Assembly (NCBI RefSeq): GCF_030525615.1
Contig: NZ_JAUNEJ010000001.1
Coordinates: 558,001-622,000, forward strand
DNA from: Cutibacterium sp.
GTDB taxonomy: Bacteria; Actinomycetota; Actinomycetes; Propionibacteriales; Propionibacteriaceae
Direction: 5' to 3'
DNA length: 64,000 bases
Both the position numbers and the translations under genes were made by a program. The notes under the pieces were generated by a model. That model did no database searches. It was not told where the DNA came from and worked only from the letters and a program-made list of their open reading frames with translations. Each line of letters starts with the position of its first letter. Positions within the stretch are counted from its first letter, which is position 1. Positions 2 through 62,970 of this stretch are shown here, piece by piece.

Positions 2-2119
2 ATCACCAAGGCAATGCCCCCGGATGTCATGGGCAAGGGAGTGCCGCTAAGCAAGATCTTCGACCCCACGCACGAGAGGTACGGGGAGGGTCAAGAGTTT
101 CGCCAGCTGGTTGCCGATAACCCGGACGTCGCCAAGGTCGTTGAGACCGCGAAAGGCCTTGAAGGTCTGATTCGCGGTACCGGTGTACACGCGTGTGCTT
201 TCATCCTGTCCAGCGCCCCACTGCTCGATCTCGTGCCGATGCATAAGCGCGACAAGGACGGCATGATTATCGCCGGTTTCGCCTACCCCCAGCTCGAGGA
301 GATGGGGCTCATGAAGATGGATTTCCTGGGCCTGCGAAACCTCGGCATCATGGATCACTGCATTAAGATCATCAAAGAGAATCGGGGGATCGACGTCGAT
401 CTCAACAGCCTGTCTCTCGATGACAAAAAGACTTACGAGATGCTGGCCCGGGGTGACACCCTGGGTGTTTTCCAGCTTGACGGCACAGCCATGCGGTCTT
501 TGCTGCGGCTCATGGGTCCAACGTGTTTCGACGATATCGTTGCCGTCCTAGCCCTGTACCGACCTGGCCCGATGGGTGCCAATGCGCATATCTCCTATGC
601 CCAACGCAAAAACGGCCGGGAACCGATCATTCCAATCCATCCCGAGCTCAAGGACGACCTCGACGAGATCTTGGCTCCGACGTATCACCTCATCGTGTAC
701 CAGGAGCAGATCATGTCGATCGCGCGAAAGCTCGCTGGCTACACGCTGGGTGGCGCTGACCTCCTGCGTCGTGCCATGGGCAAGAAGAAGAAGCACATCC
801 TGGAGGAGAACTTCATTCCATTCCAGGCGGGTATGCGCGAGCATGGCTATTCCGACGACGCCATTCAGACCTTGTGGGACGTTATGGTCCCCTTCGCCGG
901 ATACGCATTCAACAAGTCGCACGCTGCTGGTTATGGACTGGTGTCCTACTGGACGGCCTACCTCAAAGCCAATTACCCAGCCGAATATGGTGCCGCCCTG
1001 CTGACCAGCGTCGGTGATGACAAAGACAAAATGGCGATGTACCTGGCCGATATGAGGTCCCAGCACATCAACGTCTTGCCCCCTGATGTCAATGCATCAT
1101 CGCTGGAGTTCACTGCTGTTGGCGACGACATCAGATTCGGTCTTGGAGCTATCCGAAATGTCGGTGCCAACGCCGTTGCCGAGATTATCCGAGCCCGTGA
1201 GGAGAATGGTCCGGCCACGGATTTCTTCAGCTTCCTCGATCAGGTCAGCCTCACGGTGTGCAACAAGAGGCTTATCGAGTCGCTTATTAAGGCCGGGGCC
1301 TTCGATTCCATGGGCCATTCCCGACGCGGGCTGATGGCGGTCTATGAACAAGCCGTGGACGCTGTCATCGACATCAAGCGAAATCAAGCCAATGGTCAGG
1401 ACGATCTCTTCGGTATGGGGGACGATTCAGAACCCGCCCAGTTGGGTGTGGAACGAGTGGTTCCGGAGGACGACTGGGATCGCAGCACAAAACTCGCCTT
1501 TGAGCGCGAGATGTTGGGTCTGTACGTGTCCGATCACCCGCTGCGAGGTCTGGAAGCTGCGTTGGAGGCCGAATCAGATATTTCGGTGGCCGAACTAGTC
1601 AACCCTGAAGGCCACCATGAAGGGCGCTACACCATCGCGGGTATGGTCACCCAGATCATTCGACGTACCACGAAGAACGGTGATATCTGGGCCTCTGTCA
1701 CGCTGGAGGACCTCGACGCTTCCATCACTATCGCGTGTTTCCCGAAGGTCTATCAGCGAGTTGAACCGCTGCTGGCTGTCGACAGCATTATCAAGGTGCG
1801 AGGATTCGTCCGGGAACGTGACGAGACCGTAGAGATGTCGGCCAATGACGTCTGGCTTCTTGACCTTACCGATGCCGGCAATGCGCCAGTGACGATTGAT
1901 CTTCGCCGTGGACGCTGCACTCGCGGCACCATCGAGAGTCTGCGTGAGGTGCTGCACAATCACCCGGGTAGCTCTGAGGTGAGATTGCGACTCATCGACG
2001 GTAAGTCCACAACGACCTTCCGGCTTGCAGACGAGTTCAAGGTCACCACTGGCCAATCGCTGATGGCCGATCTCAAGGCATTGCTCGGCCCCTCGTGTAT
2101 CCCCAGGAGGCAGTCATGA
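2..2119 (+). CDS. dnaE: DNA polymerase III alpha subunit (3' part)
   Basis: This is the C-terminal 705 residues of the replicative polymerase; the gene begins outside the window and a full family member has about 1180 residues. The visible part holds the end of the palm and fingers (KMDFLGLRNL near position 320), the AFNKSHAAGYG motif near 905, the helix-hairpin-helix region (FGLGAIRNVG near 1137) and the OB-fold segment starting near 1625 (YTIAGMVTQI). It catalyses template-directed DNA synthesis in the replisome. The last bases carry the Shine-Dalgarno AGGAGG of the next gene, whose ATG overlaps the stop. Nothing looks broken. DnaE1-type is more likely than the error-prone DnaE2 type, judged by sequence feel only. 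Confidence 0.95.
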   Translation: MTKAMPPDVMGKGVPLSKIFDPTHERYGEGQEFRQLVADNPDVAKVVETAKGLEGLIRGTGVHACAFILSSAPLLDLVPMHKRDKDGMIIAGFAYPQLEEMGLMKMDFLGLRNLGIMDHCIKIIKENRGIDVDLNSLSLDDKKTYEMLARGDTLGVFQLDGTAMRSLLRLMGPTCFDDIVAVLALYRPGPMGANAHISYAQRKNGREPIIPIHPELKDDLDEILAPTYHLIVYQEQIMSIARKLAGYTLGGADLLRRAMGKKKKHILEENFIPFQAGMREHGYSDDAIQTLWDVMVPFAGYAFNKSHAAGYGLVSYWTAYLKANYPAEYGAALLTSVGDDKDKMAMYLADMRSQHINVLPPDVNASSLEFTAVGDDIRFGLGAIRNVGANAVAEIIRAREENGPATDFFSFLDQVSLTVCNKRLIESLIKAGAFDSMGHSRRGLMAVYEQAVDAVIDIKRNQANGQDDLFGMGDDSEPAQLGVERVVPEDDWDRSTKLAFEREMLGLYVSDHPLRGLEAALEAESDISVAELVNPEGHHEGRYTIAGMVTQIIRRTTKNGDIWASVTLEDLDASITIACFPKVYQRVEPLLAVDSIIKVRGFVRERDETVEMSANDVWLLDLTDAGNAPVTIDLRRGRCTRGTIESLREVLHNHPGSSEVRLRLIDGKSTTTFRLADEFKVTTGQSLMADLKALLGPSCIPRRQS

Positions 2120-2670
2120 ACGAGACGACTCGTATCCGCAGCCTTGCGACTCTGCGGTCGAGCATATTTGTCGTGTGCAGTGGGGTAGTCCTGGGCGGGC
2201 TGGCAGCTCCGATATGGCACGCCACGGTTACCCTTCCGACGTACAAGGTGGGTTCTGACGGTGCAGCATCGATAACCGAGACCGGCCTTACTCAAGTGTT
2301 CGCCACTGACGCCATGTACAGCCTGATCGGTGTCATCGTCGGCTTTATCATTGGCTGTCTGAGCTGGGTCCTGATGCGTCGGCGTGGAGTTTGGGGAGTA
2401 GTTGTTGCCGGGGTGTCGTCCTGTCTTTCGGCGCTGGTTTGCTGGTGGGTCGGTGTGCTTATCGGGCCTGATTCTTTCGCTGAGCGCATTGCCTCAGCCA
2501 AGGAAGGTGAAGTCGTCCCAGTGGATTTTGCCCTCCATACCTGGGTGTCGGTACTGGTCTGGTTACTGGCGACGATGATCCCCATTCTGATTGGATCTCT
2601 TGTCATGGCCTGGCGTCGCTCTCCGCGAGCTGGACGCTCGGAGCCGGCTGCCAAGGCTTCATTAGAATGA
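2116..2670 (+). CDS. four-helix integral membrane protein, possibly DUF2567
   Basis: The product has 184 residues with four predicted membrane helices at about 14-34, 65-85, 93-115 and 145-170. A roughly 30-residue outside loop lies between helices 1 and 2, and the C-terminus is rich in Arg, Ala and Ser. The ATG overlaps the dnaE stop (ATGA) and AGGAGG precedes it by five bases, so translation is coupled to dnaE. No catalytic motif is visible. The topology fits small actinobacterial membrane proteins such as DUF2567, but the family assignment is a guess and no function can be given. Confidence 0.75.
2663..2668 (+). promoter_or_regulatory. -10 box of a leaderless hisD promoter
   Basis: TAGAAT lies six bases before the hisD GTG and there is no Shine-Dalgarno. 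The predicted transcript starts at or next to the start codon. No good -35 box is seen. Confidence 0.6.
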
Positions 2671-2674
2671 CGGT

Positions 2675-3994
2675 GTGCTGAGAATCGTCGATTTGACCGG
2701 TGAAACCACTGGCGACTTGCGTCGCGTCGTGCCGCGCGCAGACTTTGATGTCGATGCTGCGATGGCGGCCGTCATCCCCGTTTGTACTGCGGTGAGAGAC
2801 CATGGCGCTGAAGCGCTGCGTACGTACAGCGAGAAGTTCGATCATGTGGTTCCGGACCATCTCAGGGTTCCGGCCGAGGCGCTGGCTGAAGCTTCCGCCA
2901 ACCTCGACGACACGTTGCGTCAAGCTTTCACCGAGTCGATTCGTCGACGCCGTCAAGTGTGCCGTGAGGCCGAGACGGAAATCTCTTCCGCTCCGGTCGA
3001 GGTGGCTGCCGGAGCTCACGTGAGTCAGCGTATTGTCCCGGTTGGACGGGTCGGTCTGTATGTTCCCGGCGGATTTGCCCCGCTGGCCTCCTCGGTCATC
3101 ATGAACGTCGTCCCAGCCCAAGAAGCCGGCGTGTCCTCAATCGCCGTGGCGTCCCCGCCCCAAGCTGAGTTCGGCGGTCTGCCGCACCCTAATATTCTTG
3201 CCCTATGCCACCTTCTCGGGGTTGATGAGGTTTACGCTGTCGGTGGTGCTCAGGCCATCGCCATGTTCGCCTACGGTGTCGAGGGTTCTGACGAGTCGGA
3301 CTCCTGCCCGAGGGTTGACATGGTTACCGGACCGGGCAATATCTATGTCGTTGCCGCCAAGCGTTATCTGCGCGGCACCGTCGGTATTGACTCCGAGGCT
3401 GGTCCGACTGAGATCGCCATCTTGGCTGACAAGACGGCCAATCCACGTCACGTCGCTGCTGATCTCATGAGTCAAGCAGAACATGACACCCTCGCCGCTG
3501 CTGTGCTCGTCACCGATTCCAGCGAGTTGGCCGAGGCGGTGGAGAAGGAGCTGGCCCCGATGGTCGAGGCCACATTGCATTCCGAGCGTATTCGCACTTC
3601 GCTGACCTCCAAACAATCGGCAATCGTCATGGTGCGCGACATCGACCAAGGTCTCGAGGTCGTCGATGCCTACGCCGCTGAACACCTGGAGATTCAGACC
3701 GCCAACGCTGCCGCCGTCGCGGCGCGGGTCCACAACGCCGGTGCCATTTTCGTTGGTCCATGGTCCCCAGTCTCTTTGGGAGACTACTCAGCCGGATCAA
3801 CCCATGTGTTGCCCACTGCCGGTGCTGCGTGCCACTCTTCGGGACTGTCGGTGCGCTCCTTCATGCGAGCGGTTCACGTCATTGACTACACCGAAGACGC
3901 TCTGCTCGATCTTGCTGATTTCGTTGAGGACTTCGCATTGGCGGAGAACCTGCCTGGCCATGCCAACGCCATCACGGTGAGGAGGCCACGATGA
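2675..3994 (+). CDS. hisD: histidinol dehydrogenase
   Basis: HisD oxidises L-histidinol to L-histidine in two NAD-dependent steps, the end of histidine biosynthesis, as a cytosolic zinc dimer. The protein has 439 residues, normal for the family. Visible motifs are [12 protein letters not shown] (nucleotide region), [10 protein letters not shown] and the catalytic Glu-His pair in [10 protein letters not shown]. The GTG start is chosen because TAGAAT sits six bases upstream, an arrangement seen at many starts here. It opens a histidine cluster, and its TGA overlaps the ATG of hisC. Actinobacterial his clusters also often start with hisD. Confidence 0.97.
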
Positions 3995-5154
3995 CTCAGC
4001 GTCGACACATTCCCCAGGCCCGCCCGGTGGTCAAGCCAAAGCCGAACTCCATTCAGTTGGCGGACCTGCCGCTTCGCCCCGAACTGGTGGGAGAGGAACC
4101 CTACGGTGCTCCACAGCTTGACGTTCCGGTGCGCCTCAACGTCAATGAGAACCCATACCCACCGTCTGAAGCGGTACGCAAGGACATGGCCAAGGCCGTT
4201 GCTCATGCCGCAAAGGGGCTGAACCGATATCCGGACCGGGAAGCCACGGGTCTGCGTGAAGATCTGGCTAGGTACATCGGATTTGGGGTCAGCAGCGATC
4301 AGATTTGGCCGGCTAATGGGTCCAATGAGGTCATGACTCACATCCTGCAGGCCTTCGGCGGGCCAGGGCGTACCTTGCTCACATTCACCCCGGCGTACTC
4401 GATGTACCCCGAGTATGCTCGCAACACCCACACCGATTACGTCACTCGTCCCCGAAACGCCTCCTACGGTTTGACAACCGACGAGATCGTGAGCGCTGTG
4501 GAGGAGGTTGATCCCGACATCGTTTTGCTGACCACTCCGAACAACCCGACTGGCACCACCATCCCAGTGGCGGTCATCGATGAGGTGTGCTCAGCTACCA
4601 ACGCGGTCGTCGTTGTCGATGAGGCTTACCAAGAATTCACTGATACTCCGGAAGACTCTGCGATTGCGCTGCTTCCCAAGCACGGGAAGCTCATCGTTGT
4701 GCGCACGCTATCCAAGGCTTTCGCCCTAGCCGGGGGACGTTTGGGATATGCCATCGCGGCCCCGGCCGTGGTGGACGCTCTGCGAATCGTTCGATTGCCC
4801 TACCACCTGTCTGAGGTGTCCCAAGTAGTGGCGCGGGTGGCGCTCGCACACGCTCCCGAAATGCTCGCTCGAGTCGACGAGCTGCGCGAGACCCGCGCGA
4901 ATCTTGAAGACTGGTTGCGTACGCACGGACTCGACGTTGTTTCCTCTCAGTCGAACTTCCTTTTGTTTGGACGGTTTGCCGACCGGCACGCGGTCTTCCG
5001 TGCGCTCCTCGATCATGGTGTTCTTGTCCGAGAGGTGGGGCCGACGGGCTACCTACGGGTGTGCGCTGGTACGCCTCGTGAGACCGACACCTTCCGGGCT
5101 GCGCTACTTGATGTCCTTCCAACTGCGCGTCGGCTTGACCCGGAGGAGGATTGA
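3991..5154 (+). CDS. hisC: histidinol-phosphate aminotransferase
   Basis: HisC is a PLP enzyme of fold type I that converts imidazole acetol phosphate to histidinol phosphate using glutamate. The PLP lysine is seen in [19 protein letters not shown] and the substrate-binding segment [12 protein letters not shown] are also present. At 387 residues it is slightly longer than usual because of about 35 N-terminal residues before the core. The start overlaps the hisD stop (ATGA) and GAGGAGG precedes it. The same family can serve as an aromatic aminotransferase, but the his context settles the role. Confidence 0.96.
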
Positions 5155-5774
5155 TGACTCATCGCTGCGCTCATATTCACCGTGAGACCTCTGAGTCCAA
5201 CGTCGACGTTTCCATCGACCTTGACGGTTGTGGAGAATCAACTATTTCCACCGGGGTCGGTTTCTACGACCACATGCTGACAGCTCTCTCAAAGCACTCA
5301 GGCATCGATATGACGATCACCACGAGCGGTGATATCGACGTCGACGGTCATCACAGCGTTGAGGACACTGCTATAGCCTTGGGGCAGGCCTTGTCCCATG
5401 CCCTCGGTGACAAGCGCGGGATCACCCGCTTCGGTGACGCTCTAGTTCCGCTCGACGAAGCCCTCGCCCAGTGCGTCGTGGATGTCGCTGGACGCCCGTG
5501 GGTGGAGTGCAGCGGTGAGCCAGAGGGCCAGATCTATGCTCGCATTGGCGGTTCCGGCGTGCCCTATCAAGGATCCATGACCTACCACGTCGTACAGTCC
5601 TTGGCCCTCAATGCTGGCCTGTGTGTCCACCTGCGTCTGCTGGCAGGACGAGATCCCCATCACATCTGCGAGGCCCAGTACAAGGCGTTGGCACGGGCGT
5701 TGCGGGTGGCTATTGCTCCCGATCCACGTAACGCCGGTCGTGTACCCAGTACCAAAGGGGTTCTTGATGTGTGA
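5154..5774 (+). CDS. hisB: imidazoleglycerol-phosphate dehydratase
   Basis: HisB removes water from imidazole glycerol phosphate with Mn at the active site and assembles as a 24-mer. The 206-residue protein is the monofunctional form, without the phosphatase domain of E. coli HisB. Metal-binding His/Glu motifs are seen in [14 protein letters not shown] and in the C-terminal [15 protein letters not shown]. The ATG at 5154 shares one base with the hisC stop (TGATG) and follows GGAGGA. A TTG one codon earlier is possible but less likely. The C-terminus ends STKGVLDV, typical of the family. Confidence 0.96.
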
Positions 5775-6387
5775 ACCGGCGCGAGTCGGAATCATCGACC
5801 ACGGTTCGGGAAACCTGCACTCGGCTGAACGTGCTCTGCGTAAGGTCGGTGCGATCGTGACCGTCTCGAAGGACCCGGAAGTCTTGCTCGACAATGACGC
5901 TCTCGTCTTGCCCGGGGTGGGTGCCTTGGCAGCATGTATGGCCGGATTGCGGTCCATGGGTGGCGACCAGTTGGTGCGTCGCTGGGTTGATGAGGGACGG
6001 CCCTTACTTGGAATTTGTGTTGGCCACCAAATGCTGTTTGAGCGCGGTAGGGAACGGGGTGTCGATGTTGAATGCCTTGGGGTGCTACCTGGTGCCGTTG
6101 AAGAATTGCCGGCTGACCGTCTGCCCCACATGGGGTGGAATACCGTCCAACCGGCGACCCAGACAACCTTGTTCCAACACGTGAATGGCGAGAGGTTTTA
6201 CTTCGTCCACTCCTATGGGGTACTCGTCGACGGTCCTGACGACCACTTCACAACGGCAACCCATCAAGGTGCAACCTTTGTCGCGGCCGCCGAGGTGGGT
6301 CCGGTGGTATCAACCCAGTTTCATCCCGAGAAGTCTGGAAGTGCGGGCCTTGACCTGCTCGAACGGTGGCTGGCTCGGGTGTGTTGA
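5767..6387 (+). CDS. hisH: imidazole glycerol phosphate synthase, glutaminase subunit
   Basis: HisH hydrolyses glutamine and passes ammonia to HisF. It is a class I glutamine amidotransferase. The nucleophile Cys is in [10 protein letters not shown] and the His-Glu pair is in QFHPEKSG near the C-terminus, so the triad is intact. [12 protein letters not shown] marks the N-terminus. The ATG overlaps the end of hisB by eight bases in another frame, so the two are probably coupled. The length of 206 residues is normal. Its partner hisF is not in this window. Confidence 0.96.
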
Positions 6388-22019: not shown

Positions 22020-25000
22020 CTACACGTGCAAAGACATCTGCATGACCGGGGTCCCGTTGAGGTCTAGACGTGGCGCTGTCTGCGGGGAGGTGGGGATGTC
22101 CTCACCCGGCTCGGGGCGCACGGCCTCGTTGGCGTCGAGCTTTTCGGCATCGTTGCGATCGTGCGCGGTGGCAGCCATCAACTTGATTCGGTTGAGCTGG
22201 TTGACCTGGGACGCACCGGGATCGTAGTCAATTGACACCACATTGGCGTGTGGGAACTGACGGCGAATCTCACGGAAGATACCTCGCCCAGTGACGTGGT
22301 TCGGCAAGCAGGCAAACGGCTGAACGACGGCGATGTTCGGGACCCCCCCACGAATCATGTCAACCATCTCACCGACGAGGTACCACCCCTCACCGGCCTG
22401 GTTACCGAGCTGGACTATGCGTTGGGCGTCGTCCATGAGTTCGGTGATCGGGGTTGGAACCTCAAACCGAGTGGACCTCTTCAGTGCCGCAGTCACCGGC
22501 TTCTGGTATTGCATCAGTAGGCCACGGAAGGCTTTCTTGAGGTGACGACTCCACTTGTCGGTACCGAAGGTCTTGTAGTTGTAATCTCCTGCCGACAGGC
22601 AGTTGTAGACGAACCACATGAGGCCGGGGAGAACGGCCTCACAGTCCTCGGATTCGATGGTATCGATGATGTGGTTGTTGGCGTCGGGATGGAACTGCAC
22701 CAGGATTTCGCCGAGGACCCCGACACGTGGCTTGCGCGGGCCGTCGACGAGTCCGAGGTGTTCGAAGTCGTCGACGATGCCGTTGATGATCGCCTTGTAC
22801 GAGGTGCGTCGCCCCCATGTCTCGGAATGGCCGTGGTGAAGGAAATGCTCCCTGGCAATAGCTGTCCAGCGGTGCATGAGCTCGTCAGCAGACCCCGGAA
22901 CCGCCTCATAAGGACGAGTACGCAGGTGTACTTTTTGCAGCAGGTCACCGATGGTGACGGCCTGTACCACGCGGTGAACCAGGGGAGCGGTCAGGGAGAA
23001 GCCCGGGTTGTCCTCGACGCCCTGGAGGGAGGCCGCAATGACCGGGATGTTTCCGAATCCGGCGTCTTTGAGCGCCTTGCGCAGCAGACCGATGTAGTTG
23101 GTGGCACGGCACATACCACCGGTCTGGGTGAGGAAGAGGGTGGTGTGATCCAGGTCGTACTTGCCCGACTTTAGCGCCGAAACAAGCTGCCCAATGACGA
23201 CAATCGCTGGGAAGCACGCATCATTGTTGACCACCGACAAGCCGCAGTCGATGTTCTCTCGCGACGCTTGCTCCAACACCTCGACGTTGTAACCGGAGGC
23301 CTGCAGAGCTGCCTCGGCGACCGATGTCTGATATGGGGCTAGCTGGGGCACCAAGATGGTGTGTGTGGCCTTCATCTCCTTGGTAAATGGCACTCGCTCG
23401 TCGGACAGAGGGTGTGTCACCAGCTTGCGGTTGTGACTGGCGCGTTCCTTCGCGGCAGCCTGCAGGGAACGCATCCGAATACGAGCTGCCCCCAGGTTCG
23501 ACACTTCGTCGATTTTGAGGGTGGTGTAGATGCGGTCCCGCGCAGCCAGGATCTCGCGAACTTGGTCAGTCGTGATCGCGTCCAGACCACATCCGAAGGA
23601 GTTCAGCTGGACGAGCTCAAGATCGGGACGCGACCCTACGAAGGCGGCAGCCTGATAGAGCCGAGAGTGGAACATCCACTGGTCTCGTACCCGCAGCGGG
23701 CGCTCCAGCAGGTCAGCTCCCAGATGAGCCACGGAATCCTCGGTGAGGACCGCCATCCCCAACGAATTGACCATCTCAGGAATGCCGTGGTGAATCTCGG
23801 GATCGACGTGGTAGGGCCGTCCTGCCAGCACAATCCCGGGCACGTGGTGTTCGGCCATGTAGGCCAAGGCGTCTTCACCCATCTTGCGGACGTCGTCGTG
23901 GAACGCCTTGTCTTCCTCAAGACCTTTGGTGACGGCCTGGCGGGCTTCCTCGACGGTGACCCCGTCTTCGACGAAGATCTCGGACAGCCTCTCGGCTAGC
24001 TTGTCCGGGTCGGCCAGGGAGAGGAAGGGGGAGATGAGTTCGACGTTCTTCTCGCGCAGATTCTCCACATTGGCGCGGATGACTTCGGGGTAGGAGGCCA
24101 CGACTGGGCAGTTGAAGTGGGCGTCGGCGTCAGCCACGCTGACTTGCTCGAAACGGATGCAGGGGTCGAAGATCCGCTTGACGCCGCGCGCGATGAGATC
24201 CTCGACGTGACCGTTGTTGAGTTTGGCGGGATAGCAGATGTTCTCGCTGGCGATCGACTCCATGCCCTTCTCGAACAAGGCATGGGAGGAGCGTCCCGAG
24301 ATCATGACGCGATAGCCCAGAGCCGAGAGTGTCGTAAACCAGAACGGGTAGTTCTCGTACATATTGAGGGCCCGAGGCAGCCCCAGATCGCCACGGAACG
24401 CTTTCTTGGCGGTGAGACGTCGGTAGCTGAAGAGTCTCTTGTACTTGGCCTCGAATACGTTGGGCAGCTCGGACTTTGGCAGCTTGGCCATCTTTCGGTT
24501 GTTGACTTCGGCGCCACGGTCGCACCGGTTGCCCGAGACAAAGACACGTCCGTCCGAAAAAGTGGCGATGGTGCGCTGGCAGTGGTTCTGGCACAGGGTG
24601 CAATCGTCGCGATGGGTTTCGACGGCAAATCCATCGAGTTCGGAACGCTCCCGCAGACCGCTAGAGGTGGTGGGTTCACCGGCATGGAACCGGGCCCGGG
24701 CCGTCAAAGCGGCTCCGTAGGCACCCATCAGGCCGGCTTCAGCAGGACGGACAACCTCACGCCCGGTGAGCTTTTCGAAGGCACGCAACACGGCGTTGTT
24801 GAGGAAAGTGCCGCCCTGGACGACGATCTTGTCACCCAACTGAGCCGGGTCGGTCAGTTTGATGACCTTGTACAAGGCGTTGCGAACCACCGAATAGGAC
24901 AGCCCGGCAGCGATGTCAGCGGGGGAGGCTCCTTCTTTCTGAGCCTGTTTGACCGAAGAGTTCATGAACACGGTGCAGCGACTGCCCAGATCGACAGGAT

Positions 25001-26453
25001 GTTGGGCGAGCAAACTCATCGAGGCGAACGACTCGATGTCGGTGTCCATACCGGCGGCGAAAGTTTGGAGGAAGGACCCACACCCTGACGAGCAGGCCTC
25101 GTTGACGGAGATGGAGTCAATGACCTCGTCAACGACGCGCAGGTACTTCATGTCCTGGCCACCGATGTCAATGATGGCGGTGACTCCTGGGAGCAGGTGA
25201 TCGGCAGCCCGGTAGTGGGCCATCGTCTCGACCTCGCCATCCTCGGCACCCAAGGCGGCTTTGACAAGCCCCTCTCCGTAACCGGTGGTGCAGGTGCGGG
25301 CAATGGTGGCCTCGGCGGGCATGGTGTCGTAGAGATCGGCCAGGATCTGCACTGCGGCGCTCACCGGGTCGCCCTCGTTGGAGGCGTAATGGGAGGCCAC
25401 GATGTTGAGTGACTCGTCGATGAGAACCGACTTGATGGTCGTAGAGCCGGCGTCGATTCCCAGAAAGAGGTTGCCGCGGGCGTTATGCAGCGGAAGATGG
25501 GGGAGCTTGGCCTGAGAATGACGCTTGGCGAATGCGGCCAGCTCGTCCTCATTCTTAAACAGCGGCGGCATGGACTGGGAGATGCCGTTGTGGGTACGAG
25601 CGTGACGGGAACGCTCAGCGATATCAGCAAGGTCAACAGGCTTGGAGATTGAGCTCAGAGCTGCTCCCAGGGCTACGTAGAGCTGGGCGCGCTCCGGAGT
25701 GATGTACTCGTCAACCTTGCCTTCGAGGACGCGGGCGAAGGCGTCGCGCAGGGTCGGCATGAAGTGCAGGGGACCACCGAGGAAGATGACTTTGCCGCGA
25801 ATCGGACGTCCACAAGCCAAACCGGCGATGCACTGGGTGGCAACGGCCTGCATAACCGAGGCCGCAAGGTCCTCGTGACGCGCGCCCTCGTTGATGAGGG
25901 GTTGGAGATCGGATTTGGCGAACACACCGCAGCGGGAAGCGATCGGGTGGATGGTCTGGGCTCGCGACGCCAGATCGTTGAGTCCCGGGGCGTCAGTGTG
26001 GAGCAGGGTCGCCATCTGGTCGATGAAGGCACCCGTACCGCCGGCGCAGGAACCATTCATGCGCTGCTCTGGAACTGGTTTGAGGTAGGTGATCTTGGCG
26101 TCCTCGCCGCCGAGCTCCAGAAGGACGTCGGCGTCGGGATTCCAGTGTTGGACGGCTGCGGTCTCGGCCATGACCTCTTGAATGAAGGTGAGATCGAGGG
26201 CCTCGGCAGTTCCTAGACCGGCCGAGCCGGTGACCGTCGCGCTTACCTTGGCGCCGGGGAGGGCTTGGGCGGCGTCACCGAGCAATGAAGCCATACTGCC
26301 GGTAATATCGGCATGGTGGCGTCGGTAGTCCTCGAAGAGAATCTTCTCATCGCGGCCCAGGACGACGGCCTTAATGGTCGTCGATCCAACGTCGAGGCCC
26401 ATGCGAAGGTCCTGGTCGGTCAGTGGAATCGCAGTGCCATGATATGCGTCCAT
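22020..26453 (-). CDS. giant acyl-CoA dehydratase activase-related protein
   Basis: The 1477-residue protein fuses several parts. An ASKHA ATPase (GLDVGSTTIKAVVLG, near 17) with the cluster Cys in GSCAGGTGAF is followed by a second ASKHA ATPase (GIDAGSTTIKSVLI, near 330) with SSGCGSFLQ. A Cys-rich DUF2229 segment (CTLCQNHCQ, near 617) comes next, and then an HgdB/BcrC-like region with Cys in NNDACFPA (near 1076), GGMCRATNY and QPFACLPNH (near 1376). Such activases use ATP to fire low-potential electrons from a 4Fe-4S cluster into 2-hydroxyacyl-CoA dehydratases or benzoyl-CoA reductases. The reaction of this fused form is unknown. It probably needs anaerobic conditions. The start ATG follows GGGGG; a divergent TetR gene lies 86 bases away. 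Confidence 0.88.
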   Translation of the reverse strand: MDAYHGTAIPLTDQDLRMGLDVGSTTIKAVVLGRDEKILFEDYRRHHADITGSMASLLGDAAQALPGAKVSATVTGSAGLGTAEALDLTFIQEVMAETAAVQHWNPDADVLLELGGEDAKITYLKPVPEQRMNGSCAGGTGAFIDQMATLLHTDAPGLNDLASRAQTIHPIASRCGVFAKSDLQPLINEGARHEDLAASVMQAVATQCIAGLACGRPIRGKVIFLGGPLHFMPTLRDAFARVLEGKVDEYITPERAQLYVALGAALSSISKPVDLADIAERSRHARTHNGISQSMPPLFKNEDELAAFAKRHSQAKLPHLPLHNARGNLFLGIDAGSTTIKSVLIDESLNIVASHYASNEGDPVSAAVQILADLYDTMPAEATIARTCTTGYGEGLVKAALGAEDGEVETMAHYRAADHLLPGVTAIIDIGGQDMKYLRVVDEVIDSISVNEACSSGCGSFLQTFAAGMDTDIESFASMSLLAQHPVDLGSRCTVFMNSSVKQAQKEGASPADIAAGLSYSVVRNALYKVIKLTDPAQLGDKIVVQGGTFLNNAVLRAFEKLTGREVVRPAEAGLMGAYGAALTARARFHAGEPTTSSGLRERSELDGFAVETHRDDCTLCQNHCQRTIATFSDGRVFVSGNRCDRGAEVNNRKMAKLPKSELPNVFEAKYKRLFSYRRLTAKKAFRGDLGLPRALNMYENYPFWFTTLSALGYRVMISGRSSHALFEKGMESIASENICYPAKLNNGHVEDLIARGVKRIFDPCIRFEQVSVADADAHFNCPVVASYPEVIRANVENLREKNVELISPFLSLADPDKLAERLSEIFVEDGVTVEEARQAVTKGLEEDKAFHDDVRKMGEDALAYMAEHHVPGIVLAGRPYHVDPEIHHGIPEMVNSLGMAVLTEDSVAHLGADLLERPLRVRDQWMFHSRLYQAAAFVGSRPDLELVQLNSFGCGLDAITTDQVREILAARDRIYTTLKIDEVSNLGAARIRMRSLQAAAKERASHNRKLVTHPLSDERVPFTKEMKATHTILVPQLAPYQTSVAEAALQASGYNVEVLEQASRENIDCGLSVVNNDACFPAIVVIGQLVSALKSGKYDLDHTTLFLTQTGGMCRATNYIGLLRKALKDAGFGNIPVIAASLQGVEDNPGFSLTAPLVHRVVQAVTIGDLLQKVHLRTRPYEAVPGSADELMHRWTAIAREHFLHHGHSETWGRRTSYKAIINGIVDDFEHLGLVDGPRKPRVGVLGEILVQFHPDANNHIIDTIESEDCEAVLPGLMWFVYNCLSAGDYNYKTFGTDKWSRHLKKAFRGLLMQYQKPVTAALKRSTRFEVPTPITELMDDAQRIVQLGNQAGEGWYLVGEMVDMIRGGVPNIAVVQPFACLPNHVTGRGIFREIRRQFPHANVVSIDYDPGASQVNQLNRIKLMAATAHDRNDAEKLDANEAVRPEPGEDIPTSPQTAPRLDLNGTPVMQMSLHV

Positions 26454-26527
26454 ACCCCCATTTCATCACTGTCGAAATAATCGTGCAGCTGGTGGGCCCC
26501 GTTTTTCCGAAAGATTTTGGGAAGTAG

Positions 26528-26539: not shown

Positions 26540-27193
26540 ATGTCCGTCCCGAGTCAGTCCCAGTGCGCTCACGCGGTCCGACGTGGGCCACGCAGTGAAG
26601 CCGGAGCTGCCCGAGCATCGATTCTGACAGCCGCCAGGAAACTCTTCCTCGCCGGTGACTACCAGTCGGTGAGTCTGCGAGCCATTGCTCGAGAAGCTGA
26701 GGTGGACACGTCACTGGTGAGCTACTACTTCGGCTCCAAGCAGGCCCTCTACAACGAGGCGATGTCGCTGCCGAACGGACCGCACCGGATCATTGCCGAG
26801 GTGTGCTCGCGCACTGACCCGGACCATCTGGGGGAGGCCCTAGTGGTGGCTTTCATCGAAGCTTGGGATGGTCATCTCGGGCTGGGCGAACCGGACCCGC
26901 AGATGCAGGGGGTCGTTCAGGCACTCCTGTCTCAGCCTGACGCCTTTGATGCGGTGCGTGAGTTCTACACCGACCACATCTTGGCGCCGGTCGTCAATCT
27001 CTTGGCACCTCGGTTCGGGGAAGAGGAGGCAGGGGTTCGGGCCTCACTGGGACTCACGCAGTTGCTGGGAATCTTCACGGCCCGTTACGTCGTCGGGTTG
27101 CGACCGCTGGCAAACCTATCCGCCTCGGAGCTCGTGGTTCGCGAGGCTCCTACCCTGCAGAAGACTCTCACCGGGACAGTGCCCAGGGGATAA
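26540..27193 (+). CDS. TetR family transcriptional regulator
   Basis: The 217-residue protein has an N-terminal helix-turn-helix of TetR type (ILTAARKLFLAGDYQSVSLR, then AIAREAEVDTSLVSYYFGSK, near 28-68) and a helical ligand domain resembling the TetR_C group with the segment LLGIFTARYVVGL. The ligand is unknown. Divergent placement from the giant activase gene suggests it controls that gene and itself. The ATG fits a leaderless start with TACGGT six bases upstream. Confidence 0.88.
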   Translation: MSVPSQSQCAHAVRRGPRSEAGAARASILTAARKLFLAGDYQSVSLRAIAREAEVDTSLVSYYFGSKQALYNEAMSLPNGPHRIIAEVCSRTDPDHLGEALVVAFIEAWDGHLGLGEPDPQMQGVVQALLSQPDAFDAVREFYTDHILAPVVNLLAPRFGEEEAGVRASLGLTQLLGIFTARYVVGLRPLANLSASELVVREAPTLQKTLTGTVPRG

Positions 27194-27316: not shown

Positions 27317-28387
27317 ATGACCATCGCAATCAAGATGGGTTTCCTCGATGGTGGCCCTATCGTTGACGACCAGGGCCGACTTATCGGACGAGGAGGCGGA
27401 ACAGCGCTGGTTGAGCGACTTCTCCACATGTATCCGGGAGCCGTCGTTATCGACCACGAGGACCGTAAGTGCAATGGTTTCGAGGCGAAAACGTTGACGA
27501 GCCTTGATCCGCTGGAAACCCTCGTCATCAACCTCGACGTCATCGACTCGGTCGGTGTTTTCCAGACAATGCACCGTGAAGGTGCTGAACCAAAGATCCT
27601 CAATCTGCAATGGCTACCGCCGTCTCATTACCACCACAAGGTGAATTTTGCGGCTATGGGGCTGTCCTACGCCCTCTTCCCGACCCTGTGCTCGGGTGAG
27701 CGCACGGCCGGTGAGGTGACTGAGCTGGTTCGGCGCTGGACCATCTCCCCGCTGGCACACCAGGCCCGGATCGCCTGGATCCAGCCTGGTATTCGTGATG
27801 ATCTGGTCCGAGAGCACGTCGATTCAGAAGTGCCGACCGTCTTGTACCCGTCGATTCATCTGACTGACAACAAGCGTCCGAAGGTTTTCCTTGACGTCAT
27901 GAACCGTGTTGCCTCTGAGATGGATGTGCGCATGGAGGCCCGCCTGGGCCAGCGTGACCTCGCCAGCGTCATGGCTATGAAGATGTCCTCGCCGAAGTGG
28001 GCCTCGGTCGGCCCGCTATTCGGTCAGCGTGAGGAGTACTGGGAGTCCTTGGCTCGCATGACGGCTTTCCTTGCGACCGCGAAGAATGAGGCCTACGGCT
28101 TCGAGTACCTGGAAGCCCTGGTCGCTGGCGCAGTCGGTGTCTTCCCAGATAGTGCCTGGGCCCGCAAGACTGTTCCTGAAGACTACCCGTACTTCTACCG
28201 CACCTCCGATGAGGCAGTGTCAATGTTGAAGGACGTCTTAAGGGATCCCGAGACGGCGCGAAACGCGATCAATGACGCTGCCGGAGGCTCCCTGCGCGAA
28301 TGGATCCTCGACAACAACAAGCGTTCTGGTGGTAACGAGGCCATGCGCAAGCAAATCCACGAGTGGTTCCCAGAGATTGAGGCCTGA
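27317..28387 (+). CDS. glycosyltransferase-like protein (GT-B fold?)
   Basis: I do not recognise this 356-residue family by name. No signal peptide or membrane helix is seen. The segment NEAYGFEYLEALVAGAVGVF (near 256-275) resembles the E-x7-E nucleotide-sugar motif of GT-B glycosyltransferases such as GT4. The N-terminal half (KMGFLDGGPIVDDQG) does not look like a standard GT4. A transferase of sugar to a cell-envelope acceptor is possible, but unproven. GGGAG lies seven bases before the ATG. It stands alone between the TetR gene and aspS. Confidence 0.65.
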   Translation: MTIAIKMGFLDGGPIVDDQGRLIGRGGGTALVERLLHMYPGAVVIDHEDRKCNGFEAKTLTSLDPLETLVINLDVIDSVGVFQTMHREGAEPKILNLQWLPPSHYHHKVNFAAMGLSYALFPTLCSGERTAGEVTELVRRWTISPLAHQARIAWIQPGIRDDLVREHVDSEVPTVLYPSIHLTDNKRPKVFLDVMNRVASEMDVRMEARLGQRDLASVMAMKMSSPKWASVGPLFGQREEYWESLARMTAFLATAKNEAYGFEYLEALVAGAVGVFPDSAWARKTVPEDYPYFYRTSDEAVSMLKDVLRDPETARNAINDAAGGSLREWILDNNKRSGGNEAMRKQIHEWFPEIEA

Positions 28388-41978: not shown

Positions 41979-42207
41979 GGATCCCCCGGTGTCGGTCCAC
42001 ATCACGTCGGACATCCCACCGGGGGCCGTGTTGGCTGTCCGAAGACTCCAACTCCGTTTTTCCTAAAATAAACAGTACACCACGTGCGTTCATCTGTGCA
42101 AGTAAGGAGAATCCCTTATGGCACCCGGTCTGTCATGGATCGTCACCGATCCTCAAGTACGCGACCTCTACGAAAACCGCCCCGGGTTGGTGGCTTTCGT
42201 TGACGAG
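41940..42207 (+). repeat. tandem repeat unit, copy 2
   Basis: This is the second direct copy, with scattered base changes and small gaps against copy 1. It carries the working promoter and start of the DUF3800-type gene. Both units meet at a GAAGGG shared by the joint, which suggests a recombination or slippage event at that short match. Confidence 0.9.
42064..42069 (+). promoter_or_regulatory. -10 box for the DUF3800-type gene
   Basis: TAAAAT lies 48 bases before the ATG. The 5' leader carries AAGGAGA seven bases before the start. The same box occurs in copy 1 at the matching place. Confidence 0.5.
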
Positions 42208-43017
42208 TCTTATCGCACGATCCCCCAGGTGGGCTCGATCTACCTCATGACAGCCGTGATAGCCGACACCCGAGACCTCAACGACTACCGGCGCACCCTT
42301 GTCCAAGGAATCGGCTCTAACACCTTCCACGCCGCACCAGACCAACACCGCAACCCTCAAGGCCGCGACAATATCGACATCATCAACGCGCTCACCGCAC
42401 AACGCAGCCCCACCCTGGCATCGGTGTATCTAGGCCACGACAACCTCAACAACGAGACCGTCAACATTCGTATCCGCCACGGGGTGTTACGGTCCTTAGC
42501 CATCGAACTACACCACACCTATGGCGTAGACACGATCATCGCCGACCACCTGTTCGATGCCCGACGTCACCGCCACGACGATGCCGCTATCGCCCAAGCA
42601 CGCCAGACCACCAGGGCCGATATACAGCTTCTCCACTCCCACCCGGGCCGTGAACAAATGCTGTGGGCCGCAGACGCCACCGCATGGGCCATCCAACACG
42701 ACCTGGCGACACCGGCACCCCGTAATTGGGAAAACCGCACAGGCATCCTTGGTGATGCTCTCACCATCATGAACGCTCACACTCGACGCACCATGGCCAG
42801 GCCAGTCGCACCAGCCCCCGATACGCCCCAGAAATACCCCTTGTTGAGGCAGGCGTTGCGTACTCAAGCCAGCGCCACTATCGCCGCTCAAGCCCGAGCA
42901 GCCGAACAGCACTGCCGCGAGATGGACCACAAACGTCGACGACGCGCCGCCGAGAATGCACGCCAGCGGCGACCGCGTATCGGTGGTGGCCGGGCCCGCA
43001 GACTCAAACCCCGCTAA
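42118..43017 (+). CDS. DUF3800-type protein, RNase H-like fold suspected
   Basis: The 299-residue protein begins with the DUF3800 hallmark, a hydrophobic strand ending in Asp-Glu-Ser (VAFVDES, residues 26-31), and has a later Ala-Asp pair in MLWAADATAWAI where family members have QxAD. These acids fit an RNase H-like nuclease, but activity is unproven. The C-terminal 60 residues are Arg-rich (RRRRAAENARQRRPRIGGG), so nucleic-acid binding is plausible. DUF3800 genes are common on mobile elements. It is the only full gene in the repeat-rich island. The start is fixed by AAGGAGA and the duplicated front end. Confidence 0.7.
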   Translation: MAPGLSWIVTDPQVRDLYENRPGLVAFVDESYRTIPQVGSIYLMTAVIADTRDLNDYRRTLVQGIGSNTFHAAPDQHRNPQGRDNIDIINALTAQRSPTLASVYLGHDNLNNETVNIRIRHGVLRSLAIELHHTYGVDTIIADHLFDARRHRHDDAAIAQARQTTRADIQLLHSHPGREQMLWAADATAWAIQHDLATPAPRNWENRTGILGDALTIMNAHTRRTMARPVAPAPDTPQKYPLLRQALRTQASATIAAQARAAEQHCREMDHKRRRRAAENARQRRPRIGGGRARRLKPR

Positions 43018-43374: not shown

Positions 43375-43944
43375 TCACACTCCCGTCCGAGGCAAAGCCC
43401 CACCACTACGATCATCAACGTCAACGGCACCGCTAGAGGCACCCGCCTCTAGGCGGCCAGACTCCGCCGCCACCCGGCCAGAGCGGCCATGTGTGCCCAC
43501 CCCGACAGTCGGTGTGCCAGAAGCCGTCACGACAGACGTGGCCGAAGAGGCACCCGGTTTGCTCGACGTACTCGGGCGAACTGTGGGCTTATGGGCGGTG
43601 AAATCAACCGAGCACTCATCGGTGACCTGATCGTCGTTCAACCGGTCAAAATGCATCGTCCACGGCTGAGACCCAGACCCGTGATACACCTCGTCAGAAA
43701 CCAGGTCACCGTAATGGAACACCAAGTCATAGCCGACCTCGCCAGGATCAGACACCTCAACGGCCACAAACCCCGACACGGTCCCGTCATCCTGGACGAC
43801 ATGACCACACTCGGTCACCTCGTACGACGGACCCGCCGAGGCCGGACTATCAGCCCACGCAACCGAACCAGCAGCCACACCAGCGGCCGCCACCACAGCC
43901 GCGACAGCCACCCCGGCCACGCGACGGTGAACATCACACATCAT
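43375..43944 (-). CDS. secreted LPXTG protein without its membrane anchor
   Basis: The 189-residue product has a signal peptide (basic HRR at 6-8, hydrophobic 9-28, probable AWA cleavage after 31), a small domain of about 75 residues with two Cys (Cys near 45 and 107, possibly a disulfide), a Ser/Thr/Pro/Gly-rich linker, and LPRTG at 184-188 followed by one Val and a stop. Sortase substrates need a hydrophobic helix and basic tail after LPXTG; both are missing. The end lies next to repeat copy 3, which may have cut it. ATG at 43944 has AAAGGA six bases upstream. The role of the domain is unknown. Confidence 0.65.
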   Translation of the reverse strand: MMCDVHRRVAGVAVAAVVAAAGVAAGSVAWADSPASAGPSYEVTECGHVVQDDGTVSGFVAVEVSDPGEVGYDLVFHYGDLVSDEVYHGSGSQPWTMHFDRLNDDQVTDECSVDFTAHKPTVRPSTSSKPGASSATSVVTASGTPTVGVGTHGRSGRVAAESGRLEAGASSGAVDVDDRSGGALPRTGV

Positions 43945-43991
43945 CACTGTTCCTTTCACGGCGCGGAATATGTGCCACGCCAACCACAAAC

Positions 43992-44228
43992 TCAGCAACA
44001 CACGGCCACCCGACGCTCAACCGGGGCAGCCAGCGGACGTTCAACCGGGGCAGCAAACGACGGCTTAACCGCCGCGATCAACGCGTGAATCCGCGCCCTG
44101 CACTCCGGATCAGACCGCTCAGCCTTCACCCGCGCGTCATACCGTGCCTGCTCGGCACGCCACGCCTCAGAAACCACCTCAGGACTCGCAGTCCGCTCAT
44201 GATCAACCGAGGCCGTGTTGGCTATCAC
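43992..44228 (-). CDS. small hypothetical protein, doubtful
   Basis: This is a 78-codon frame with a GTG start inside repeat copy 4. The product is charged and helical (EAWRAEQARYDARVKAE) and ends with two near-copies of AAPVER, encoded by a 19-base direct repeat. No motif is known. It may be the tail of a larger lost gene, fused to a repeat end that supplies a start. No firm ribosome site is seen. Confidence 0.3.
   Translation of the reverse strand: MIANTASVDHERTASPEVVSEAWRAEQARYDARVKAERSDPECRARIHALIAAVKPSFAAPVERPLAAPVERRVAVCC
44012..44054. repeat. 19-base direct repeat
   Basis: Two near-identical copies (44012-44030 and 44036-44054, one mismatch) at a 24-base period, containing TCAACCGGGGCAGC. 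They encode the doubled APVER stretch of the small frame. Confidence 0.8.
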
Positions 44229-60800: not shown

Positions 60801-61340
60801 ATCATCTTAGATCCTGAGGACACCTCGACAGAACTCACGAGGTTCACATTTCCGCGTCAGAGCAACGGCCGGAAACTGTGCCTGGCCGACTTTTTCCGCG
60901 ATGCCAATGAAGCCGGAGAATATGGACCTGACGTCATCAGCTTCCAACTGGTGACGATGGGCAAAGCGGTCTCGGTTGCCACCCAACGTCTCTTCGAGGC
61001 CAACTCCTACCGGGAGTATCTCGAATTGCATGGACTGTCCGTTCAGCTGACCGAGGCTCTTGCTGAGATGTGGCACGCCCGCGTGCGTCATGAATTAGGT
61101 ATTGACTATGACGATTCCTCTGTCGCCGATGCCATCGATCACCAGACCTATCGCGGCTGCCGGTACAGTTTTGGATACGCCGCCTGCCCGAATCTCGAAG
61201 ACAGGGCCAAGGTGGTGAAACTGCTCAACCCGGCGAGGATCGGTGTGGAGCTGTCGGAGGAGTTCCAACTTCACCCCGAACAGTCCACTGACGCCTTCGT
61301 CGTCCACCATCCGGAGGCCAACTATTTCAACGCCAAATGA
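57855..61340 (+). CDS. metH: B12-dependent methionine synthase
   Basis: MetH methylates homocysteine via methylcobalamin. The 1161 residues have, in order, the homocysteine domain (DGAMGTMLQSSDL; zinc Cys in GLNCATG and GGCCGTTPDH), the pterin domain (IGERTNANGSKAF near 333), the cobalamin cap and binding domains with DVHDIGKN near 726, and the reactivation domain with the end RYSFGYAACPNLEDR. All domains are present, so the enzyme should be self-sufficient with a flavodoxin or similar donor. The ATG follows TAGGCT by seven bases. The HAD-TrmI gene starts one base after the stop. Confidence 0.96.
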   Translation: MTLRTALSQQVLVIDGAMGTMLQSSDLTVDDFQGLEGCNEILNITRPDVISGIHDAYLDAGADIIETNTFGVNLPALNEYGIASRAVELASAATELAREAADKRTDKPRYVVGSIGPGTKLPTLRQIGFAAIRDVYQQVIGAMIDAGADGVQIETCQDLLQARAAIIGAHRAVAERHADLPVLVDFTVETTGTMLMGSECGAALTVLESLGVDAIGLNCATGPAEMVEHLRTLSRGARVPIMCMPNAGLPEITAEGARYPLGPDDLAPVLDDYVDRYGLSVVGGCCGTTPDHIRAIADRVSGRRVPEREVHHVDAVASLYNDVPLSQDTAYLAIGERTNANGSKAFREAMLAHNWDECVDIAKAQIRDGAHLLDLCVDYVGCDGVADMSELSARLATACTLPIILDSTEPDVLAAGLEHLPGRCIINSVNFEDGDGPGSRYQRVMPMVVENGAGVVALTIDEQGQARTAEWKVRVASRLIDDLVGNWGMDIGDILVDCLTFPIGTGQEETRRDGLETINAIAQIKKRYPGVRTTLGVSNISFGLNPAARIVLNSVFLHEAVKAGLDSAIVHTAKILPIDRIPDDQRQVALDLVYDRRHDGYDPLNRFLELFEGVTAASMRAEREAELAAMPLFERLKQRIIDGNAKGLEDDLDEAMESKPALDIVNEDLLAGMQVVGDLFGSGKMQLPFVLQSAEVMKTAVAHLEPHMDKTDTSGKGTLVLATVKGDVHDIGKNLVDIIVSNNGYHVVNLGIKQPVTAIIEAAETNHADVIGMSGLLVKSTMVMKDNLLELNRAGLASKYPVMLGGAALTRTFVEEDLNDLFDGEVRYAKDAFEGLRLMDSVMAVKKGVPGAELPAPRRRRIKVRQAVVEDVETTSDGHDSRADVARPVPGSVEVPTPPFWGSRISKGIPLADVLVWLDERATFMGRWGLKGSRSDGSWDRMVNEVARPRLRLLLDRIRQENLAQFSVVDGYWPCLSHDHDLIILDPEDTSTELTRFTFPRQSNGRKLCLADFFRDANEAGEYGPDVISFQLVTMGKAVSVATQRLFEANSYREYLELHGLSVQLTEALAEMWHARVRHELGIDYDDSSVADAIDHQTYRGCRYSFGYAACPNLEDRAKVVKLLNPARIGVELSEEFQLHPEQSTDAFVVHHPEANYFNAK

Positions 61341-61341
61341 G

Positions 61342-62970
61342 ATGTCCGCCCGCGCCTTGACTGCTGACCGTTTTGCAGCGGTCCTGTGGGACTTCGACGG
61401 GACCCTCGTCGACACAGAGCCTCGATGGGTCGAGGCAGAACTGGCGATTCTAGCCGCGCACGGAATCGTGTGGGAGACCGAAAAGGCTAGTCGCTTCACA
61501 GGTGGGCCGATGACCGACGTCTGCGAGGCGATAGTCGCAGACATTGGTGAAGAGGTAACCGTCGACGATGTGCGCCGCCAGCTCATCGCGATGGTTTCAA
61601 CCTTCAACCGGGAACGTGATGTTCCATGGCGTCCGGGCGTGCTGGAGCTGCTGACCGAGATACGCGATGCTGGCATTCCCATGGCGATCGTTACCGGATC
61701 GACGTACGCCGTCGTCGAGCCGGTGCTCAAAGCCGTTCACGAGCGGTTTGGCAACCTGTTCGACACTGTTGTGACCTTCGATGACGTCACTCCGGAGACG
61801 ACCAAGCCAGCTCCCGAGCCATATTTGCTGGCCGCCGAAAGGCTTGACGTGGATATCACTGAGTGCCTGGCGATCGAGGACTCCTCAAAGGGGGCAGCCT
61901 CAGCGACGACCGCCGGGGCTGCTGTGCTCACTGTCGACGGCCTGTCCGAGGCCGGTCCTGGCCCGCGACGTGTCCACCGGCCCGATCTAGCCGGCCTGTC
62001 ACTGGCCGACGTGGTCACCTTGTGGCACCTCGCCAGCGAACCTGCTGCTCCGGTAGCCAATGGAGGTGGAGGAGTCCTGCGCGCCGGGGAGCGGATTACT
62101 CTCACTGATCCCAAGGGACGCAAGCACTCGATCGTCCTACAGCCCGGTGGCGTCTTCCACACCACCAAGGGGGCAGTGCGACACGACGACCTTATCGGTG
62201 GGCCTCAAGGGGTCGTCGTCACTTCCGTTGGAGGTCTTGAATTCCTGGCCATGCGGCCCATTCTCAGCGAGTTCACCGTCTCTATGCCTCGTGAGGCCGC
62301 GATTATTTATCCCAAGGAAGCAGCCCAGATCACCATGTGGGCCGACATCTTTCCCGGGGCGCGGGTACTTGAGGCCGGAGTCGGGTCTGGTGGATTGTCG
62401 ATCCCGCTACTGCGCGCCATCGGGCCGAACGGACATTTGTATTGCTACGAGAGGCGTCAGGATTTCGCGGACGTCGCGCGGAAAAACGTCGAGTCCTTCT
62501 ACGGTGAGGTGCCGTCAACCTGGGATCTCAGGGTCGCTGATGTGGTAACCGGAATCACGTCAGAGCCGATCGATCGCGCGGTTCTGGACATGCTTGCTCC
62601 GTGGGAGTGTGTCGAGACGGTCGGCAAGGTGCTGGTTCCAGGCGGGGTGTTGTGCTGTTACGTCGCGACCACAACTCAGATGGGGCGAGTAATGGATACT
62701 CTTCGTGCTGATGGGGGTTGGACTGAGCCTCACGCAACCGAAACAACAACCCGCGACTGGCACGCCGAGGGTTTGGCCATCCGTCCGGCTCACGGCACGA
62801 CGGGCCACACCGGGTTTCTGGTGATTTCTCGTCGTCTTGCCCCTGGTGTGATGGCACCAATGCGCAAGCGTCGACCTGCCCCCGGTGCCTACGGCCCTGA
62901 CTACCACGGTCCTCGTCCACGCAATATCACTGAACACGACCAGTGGCGATTGCCGAAAGAAGAGAAATAG
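61342..62970 (+). CDS. HAD hydrolase fused to tRNA m1A58 methyltransferase TrmI
   Basis: The 542-residue protein combines two enzymes. Residues 1-235 are a HAD hydrolase with VLWDFDGTLVDTEP (motif I), VTGSTY (motif II), TKPAPEPYLLA (motif III) and AIEDSSKGAASA (motif IV). A Gly-rich hinge follows, and then from about 245 a TrmI-like methyltransferase (AGERITLTDPKGRKHSI, IYPKEAAQITMW, VLEAGVGSGGLSIPLLRA, AVLDMLAPWECVETV). TrmI normally stands as its own protein of about 280 residues. The frame is open throughout, with no ATG, GTG or TTG start near the joint. It methylates A58 in tRNA; the HAD part may act on a sugar phosphate. It is likely cotranscribed with metH. Confidence 0.88.
   Translation: MSARALTADRFAAVLWDFDGTLVDTEPRWVEAELAILAAHGIVWETEKASRFTGGPMTDVCEAIVADIGEEVTVDDVRRQLIAMVSTFNRERDVPWRPGVLELLTEIRDAGIPMAIVTGSTYAVVEPVLKAVHERFGNLFDTVVTFDDVTPETTKPAPEPYLLAAERLDVDITECLAIEDSSKGAASATTAGAAVLTVDGLSEAGPGPRRVHRPDLAGLSLADVVTLWHLASEPAAPVANGGGGVLRAGERITLTDPKGRKHSIVLQPGGVFHTTKGAVRHDDLIGGPQGVVVTSVGGLEFLAMRPILSEFTVSMPREAAIIYPKEAAQITMWADIFPGARVLEAGVGSGGLSIPLLRAIGPNGHLYCYERRQDFADVARKNVESFYGEVPSTWDLRVADVVTGITSEPIDRAVLDMLAPWECVETVGKVLVPGGVLCCYVATTTQMGRVMDTLRADGGWTEPHATETTTRDWHAEGLAIRPAHGTTGHTGFLVISRRLAPGVMAPMRKRRPAPGAYGPDYHGPRPRNITEHDQWRLPKEEK

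Follow-up and report, generated by a model that had tools for sequence, protein, structure and literature searches.

The 64,000-nucleotide stretch of a Cutibacterium sp. genome analysed here, referred to as the window, carries on its minus strand a gene of 4,434 bp (stop codon included) that we assign, with a probability of about 0.87, to a single-chain anaerobic plasmalogen synthase (PlsA). The gene is one uninterrupted frame specifying 1477 residues (Table 1). The architecture, the invariant cysteines, the homology, the fold and the operator pattern described below were computed in this work, while the product and the chemistry attributed to the enzyme are drawn from the literature on homologues.

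PlsA, alone or together with PlsR, is the anaerobic bacterial plasmalogen synthase, which converts a phospholipid ester to a vinyl ether (PMC12838417). Its discovery is ascribed to Jackson et al. (2021) in PMC9702350, and PlsA/PlsR orthologues occur in Propionibacteriales, Bifidobacteriales and Actinomycetales (PMC9702350). Expression of the single-gene PlsA of Enterococcus faecalis (4,248 bp), Lactococcus cremoris (4,311 bp) or Bifidobacterium longum subsp. suis (4,920 bp) gives rise to plasmalogens in E. coli; the domains have been named Act1, Act2, Red1 and Red2, oxygen-sensitive [4Fe-4S] clusters are presumed, and Clostridium perfringens has a two-gene plsA–plsR form (PMC12838417). The window gene is consistent with PlsA in its length, its domain order and the presence of a neighbouring TetR gene.

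Profile searches placed Act1, Act2, Red1 and Red2, with DUF2229, in that order in one chain. TIGR00241 matches twice, the better match covering residues 330–583, and in a genome-wide scan PF01869 matched two stretches of the protein with scores of 67.9 and 121.6 bits, each above the family cut-off. DUF2229 (PF09989) spans residues 690–908 (E = 4e-79). No other DUF2229 protein was found by profile search in the whole genome, and HGD-D (PF06050) matched neither this protein nor any other in the genome. An earlier sequence-only reading had described two activase domains, each with cluster cysteines, fused to DUF2229 and an HgdB-like part, with no other dehydratase gene nearby; the profile matches, together with the cysteines and the C-terminal fold considered next, confirm that description, and the absence of another DUF2229 or HGD-D protein extends to the genome.

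The protein contains 22 cysteines, exactly 15 of which are invariant in 78/78 homologous sequences. They are distributed over Act1, Act2, the linker that follows, Red1 and Red2 (Table 1), and all 15 are retained in the copies from Listeria, Collinsella and Fusobacterium. The ASKHA motifs G-x-D-x-G-S-T and GGQD/GGED are conserved and each activase half has two cluster cysteines, as in activases of the HgdC type. The relatives of Act2 in the PDB are 4eht, 1hux, 9gai and 7yyl, and C454 and C493 align onto the conserved cysteines of HadI (4eht) and HgdC (1hux). AlphaFold models of the N-terminal half (Act1 included) and the C-terminal half are confident, with pLDDT (predicted local distance difference test) values of 87.8 and 88.7, respectively. 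In Foldseek searches the N-terminal half pairs with activators of the HgdC/HadI type (E = 3e-19), and the model of Red1 and Red2 pairs with DCCP, benzoyl-CoA reductase (BzdNO) and HadBC chains (E values from 4e-5 to 8e-4, probability 1.00). By sequence profile the C-terminal half has no significant relation to PDB entries, with no HadBC or benzoyl-CoA reductase structure matched, nor to E. coli YjiM. In our models, then, the kinship of Red1 and Red2 with dehydratase subunits is visible by fold only.

Relatives of the window protein are common. A scan of species genomes returned at least 589 genomic stretches with relatives. Nearly all of the best 80 of these are full-length single polypeptides, from Clostridia, spirochaetes, Bifidobacterium, Actinomyces, Enterococcus and others; 77 of the 79 loci at which a PlsA-like open reading frame (ORF) was found have one ORF of at least 1350 residues. 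All nine Cutibacterium genomes carry a homologue (81–100% identity), and a family-level sample gave a match in 84 of 148 genomes, some of them fragmentary. The rarity of the fused protein implied by the sequence-only reading is not borne out by these counts. Because the chain recurs in 9/9 genomes of the genus and in hundreds beyond them, we rejected a chance ORF or an assembly fusion. In four of the family genomes (G032, G096, G040 and G112) the plsA match contains one or two stop codons, reflecting either a pseudogene or sequencing error.

Single-chain homologues from Bifidobacterium, Enterococcus, Clostridium and Listeria are 50–60% identical to the window protein over the full length, the B. 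psychraerophilum copy having 57% aligned identity. In a FastTree phylogeny of 25 sequences the window protein clusters with the Bifidobacterium copy and four other actinobacterial copies (support 1.0). This anchor holds at the genus level: activity has been shown for B. longum (PMC12838417), and the neighbour in the tree is B. psychraerophilum, a different species. Fusobacterium animalis has two adjacent genes, the products of which (975 and 404 residues) correspond to residues 17–1004 and 1027–1430 of the window protein. This split marks the boundary between Red1 and Red2 and corresponds to the plsA–plsR arrangement of C. perfringens, so that Red2 is the PlsR part.

Two distant members of the family carry no annotation beyond acyl-CoA dehydratase activase. 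The Haliovirga abyssi protein is 34% identical over the full length and keeps all 15 cysteines, and that of Paraclostridium bifermentans is 23.5% identical over 78% of the length. They may represent sister enzymes that make a different product.

Several points weigh against the assignment to PlsA. It relies on homologues, with the biochemistry coming from organisms other than Cutibacterium, and the literature searched yielded no mention of plasmalogens from the genus. Moreover, primary sequence cannot separate PlsA from the glycerol ester reductase Ger with certainty, there being no published signature (PMC13274423), and the same paper proposes an association of two activase domains with Ger, which would imply alkyl ethers as the product. 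A Ger-type enzyme would be the same machine with the reduction carried on to the saturated alkyl ether instead of being stopped at the vinyl ether. Ger is a PlsA-like homologue whose validated members possess two activation domains (PMC13274423, PMC11150832), as the window protein does. However, two PF01869 stretches are also present in the relatives from Bifidobacterium, Enterococcus and Clostridium. Domain count therefore does not discriminate between PlsA and Ger, and after this test we rejected two activase domains as a mark of the latter. The window protein also lies on the branch of Bifidobacterium, a genus with a proven plasmalogen-making PlsA (PMC12838417), and we regard a Ger-type activity as improbable.

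The other enzyme to be considered is a soluble ATP-driven 2-hydroxyacyl-CoA dehydratase or a reductase of the benzoyl-CoA type, acting on an acyl-CoA. Act2 is clearly an activase of the HgdC/HadI type and the C-terminal half has the fold of benzoyl-CoA reductases and 2-hydroxyacyl-CoA dehydratases. Against this, the Red1 and Red2 profiles match neither HadBC and benzoyl-CoA reductase structures nor YjiM, which places them on a separate branch; a lipid product has been demonstrated for homologues of the same architecture; and the gene sits between hisS and aspS with no linked acyl-CoA pathway genes. We consider such an enzyme very improbable, and a new dehydratase class was rejected. The sequence-only reading had called the substrate unknown and suggested screening acyl-CoA esters as ligands. 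Since close homologues produce plasmalogens in E. coli (PMC12838417), the first statement no longer holds and the screen points in the wrong direction: the enzyme is expected to act on the acyl ester at sn-1 of a membrane phospholipid. The idea in that reading of a self-contained ATP-driven reductase is right, in that activator and dehydratase modules share one chain, but the homologues speak against an acyl-CoA substrate.

For a PlsA of this architecture we infer the following scheme, its electron path and cluster types included. Act1 and Act2 would pair within the chain as a pseudo-dimer of HgdC-type activase halves, holding one putative [4Fe-4S] cluster between them by C136, C175, C454 and C493. 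Binding and hydrolysis of ATP would drive low-potential electrons from this shared cluster into the Red1/Red2 pair, perhaps via a candidate linker cluster at C618, C621, C625 and C644. Red1 and Red2, each with a putative three-cysteine site, would then reduce, one electron at a time, the sn-1 ester of a diacyl phospholipid in the membrane, and protonation and loss of water would give the alk-1'-enyl (vinyl) ether. The reaction follows the proposal of Jackson et al. as summarized in PMC8788747.

We turn now to regulation. As the sequence-only reading had noted, a single TetR gene stands divergent from the giant gene. Such adjacency is already known from E. faecalis, where EF1326, a TetR/AcrR gene, is the immediate upstream neighbour of the pls gene EF1327, and from other facultative anaerobes (PMC9702350); the palindrome described here is new. 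Alignment of the intergenic region between tetR and plsA at 14 loci of two genera revealed one conserved block, ATTTCAWCACNRTSGAAAT, which is a 19-bp imperfect palindrome. The palindrome is present at 14/14 loci with a TetR of the window type and occupies the same place in 9/9 genus genomes, two of which have one extra site, with two mismatches, elsewhere. In the whole genome (2.26 Mb) the bare pattern ATTTC-N9-GAAAT is found a single time. The two genera are related and their 14 loci are hence not independent, but a third genus provides an independent case: in Actinomyces mediterranea 20 kb of sequence hold two copies of the pattern, both at the plsA start, against 0.01 expected, and the TetR divergent from plsA is related to that of the window (62/189 residues identical, with the same TetR_C_16 domain). 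None of the 27 other plsA loci checked has the palindrome upstream; these loci have either no nearby TetR or a TetR of another subfamily, and at one of them the check covered only 140 bp of upstream sequence.

The conservation and uniqueness of the site, its duplication in a third genus and its absence elsewhere point to the TetR protein as probably a dedicated local repressor acting at this predicted operator; accidental adjacency of the two genes was rejected. By binding the palindrome ahead of plsA, TetR would repress that gene and, because the site sits in the shared intergenic region, probably itself as well. Repression would be relieved by a signal of low oxygen or of the state of the membrane lipids. 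One could instead regard the palindrome as a promoter element, or as serving only tetR, with plsA outside the control of TetR, and a weak sigma-70-like pair (ATGAAA-16-TATCAT, 26466–26439) does overlap the site. Yet the site is missing at plsA loci that lack a TetR of the window type, within the intergenic region it sits on the plsA side, and it is doubled at the plsA start in A. mediterranea, where the adjoining TetR is related. This explanation appears unlikely to us, and control of plsA by the adjoining TetR is preferred.

A single cysteine near residue 89 of the window TetR is conserved in 14/14 orthologues of the two genera and is not present in A. mediterranea; it could be a redox-sensing thiol. 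The TetR beside plsA in Enterococcus raffinosus has a TetR_C_8 domain, those of several other lineages have no recognized C-terminal family, and the similarity of such proteins to the window TetR is mostly confined to the DNA-binding half. From these comparisons it looks as if different TetR subfamilies have repeatedly been recruited beside plsA. A further pairing is found in Collinsella aerofaciens (530–6033 of its locus), with a TetR-like gene 11 bp upstream of a fused plsA on the same strand.

Table 1. Features of the plsA–tetR locus (positions in the window).
Feature	Position	Strand	Remarks
plsA-like gene	22020..26453	-	1477 residues, Act1-Act2-Cys linker-Red1-Red2; full-length homologues
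Act1, first activase (ASKHA) domain, ~residues 18-285	25600..26402	-	PF01869/TIGR00241 stretch; putative ligands C136, C175
Act2, second activase domain, ~residues 330-586	24696..25466	-	PF01869, TIGR00241; putative ligands C454, C493, plus invariant C458
Four-Cys linker C618-x2-C621-x3-C625-x18-C644, residues 618-645	24519..24602	-	Invariant 78/78; candidate extra [4Fe-4S] site
Red1, dehydratase/reductase domain 1 with DUF2229, ~residues 690-1010	23420..24386	-	PF09989; C740, C782, C955; Fusobacterium split; Red1+Red2 fold match
Red2, dehydratase/reductase domain 2, ~residues 1027-1440	22130..23375	-	C1080, C1115, C1382; equals separate PlsR; Fusobacterium ORF
Divergent TetR-family regulator, 217 residues (TetR_N + TetR_C_16)	26540..27193	+	Pfam; orthologues adjacent in two genera
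Predicted TetR operator ATTTCATCACTGTCGAAAT (ATTTC-N9-GAAAT)	26460..26478	.	7-25 bp upstream of plsA start

The order hisS, plsA, tetR, an unannotated gene (27317–28387) and aspS is conserved within the genus and also in another genus, so that no other lipid gene is linked to plsA. The unannotated gene, on the plus strand 124 bp downstream of tetR, encodes 356 residues with no Pfam or NCBIfam match and is kept at this position in two genera (66–94% identity); by eye its product looks like a GT-B glycosyltransferase, and it may be co-transcribed with tetR. Elsewhere in the window, a plus-strand ORF of 575 residues (61243–62970) combines a HAD hydrolase domain (residues 47–231) with a TrmI-type tRNA methyltransferase (277–508) and is a possible fusion, while two further plus-strand ORFs of 299 and 199 residues (42118–43017 and 43489–44088) have no Pfam match.

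The enzyme is of a known kind and the gene is an ordinary one; the novelty is modest and lies on the regulatory side, in the operator and the repeated association with TetR. A concrete function in lipid synthesis can take the place of the database labels '2-hydroxyacyl-CoA dehydratase' and 'acyl-CoA dehydratase activase', the regulator gains a predicted operator that can be tested, and the locus offers a one-target system for studying how bacteria turn plasmalogen synthesis on and off. We see an even chance that a broader generalization from these sequences is correct, namely that in aerotolerant actinobacteria plasmalogen synthesis is controlled by a dedicated TetR switch that has one target and the operator ATTTC-N9-GAAAT, and that separate TetR subfamilies have been recruited beside plsA in Enterococcus, Actinomyces, Collinsella and syntrophs. 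This would suggest sensing of oxygen or membrane lipids, with repeated selection for control of ether-lipid content in bacteria that are exposed to oxygen.

Among known systems the closest are the single-gene PlsA enzymes of B. longum, E. faecalis (EF1327) and L. cremoris. The window protein shares with them a similar length and a full-length colinear Act1–Act2–Red1–Red2 order, all 15 cysteines are conserved in the homologues examined, and an adjoining TetR gene is found at the E. faecalis locus as in the window. The differences are that the host, an actinobacterium, belongs to a different family and that its TetR has a TetR_C_16 C-terminal domain in place of the TetR_C_8 of the Enterococcus relative. 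The plsA–plsR pair of C. perfringens (CPE1194/1195) appears, by way of the split pair of Fusobacterium, to have the same modules in the same order, with Red2 a separate protein (PlsR) where the window protein has it fused. The Ger enzymes of Thermotoga maritima and Desulfatibacillum alkenivorans, compared here from their descriptions, are likewise PlsA-like, with two activation domains and an ester-to-ether reduction, but make saturated alkyl ethers. The HgdC/HadI activases with the HadBC dehydratase, the DCCP:DCCP-R system and benzoyl-CoA reductase share the activase fold, the cluster cysteines and the dehydratase-type C-terminal fold; they differ in being separate soluble proteins that act on acyl-CoAs or small molecules, and they have no detectable sequence match to Red1 or Red2.

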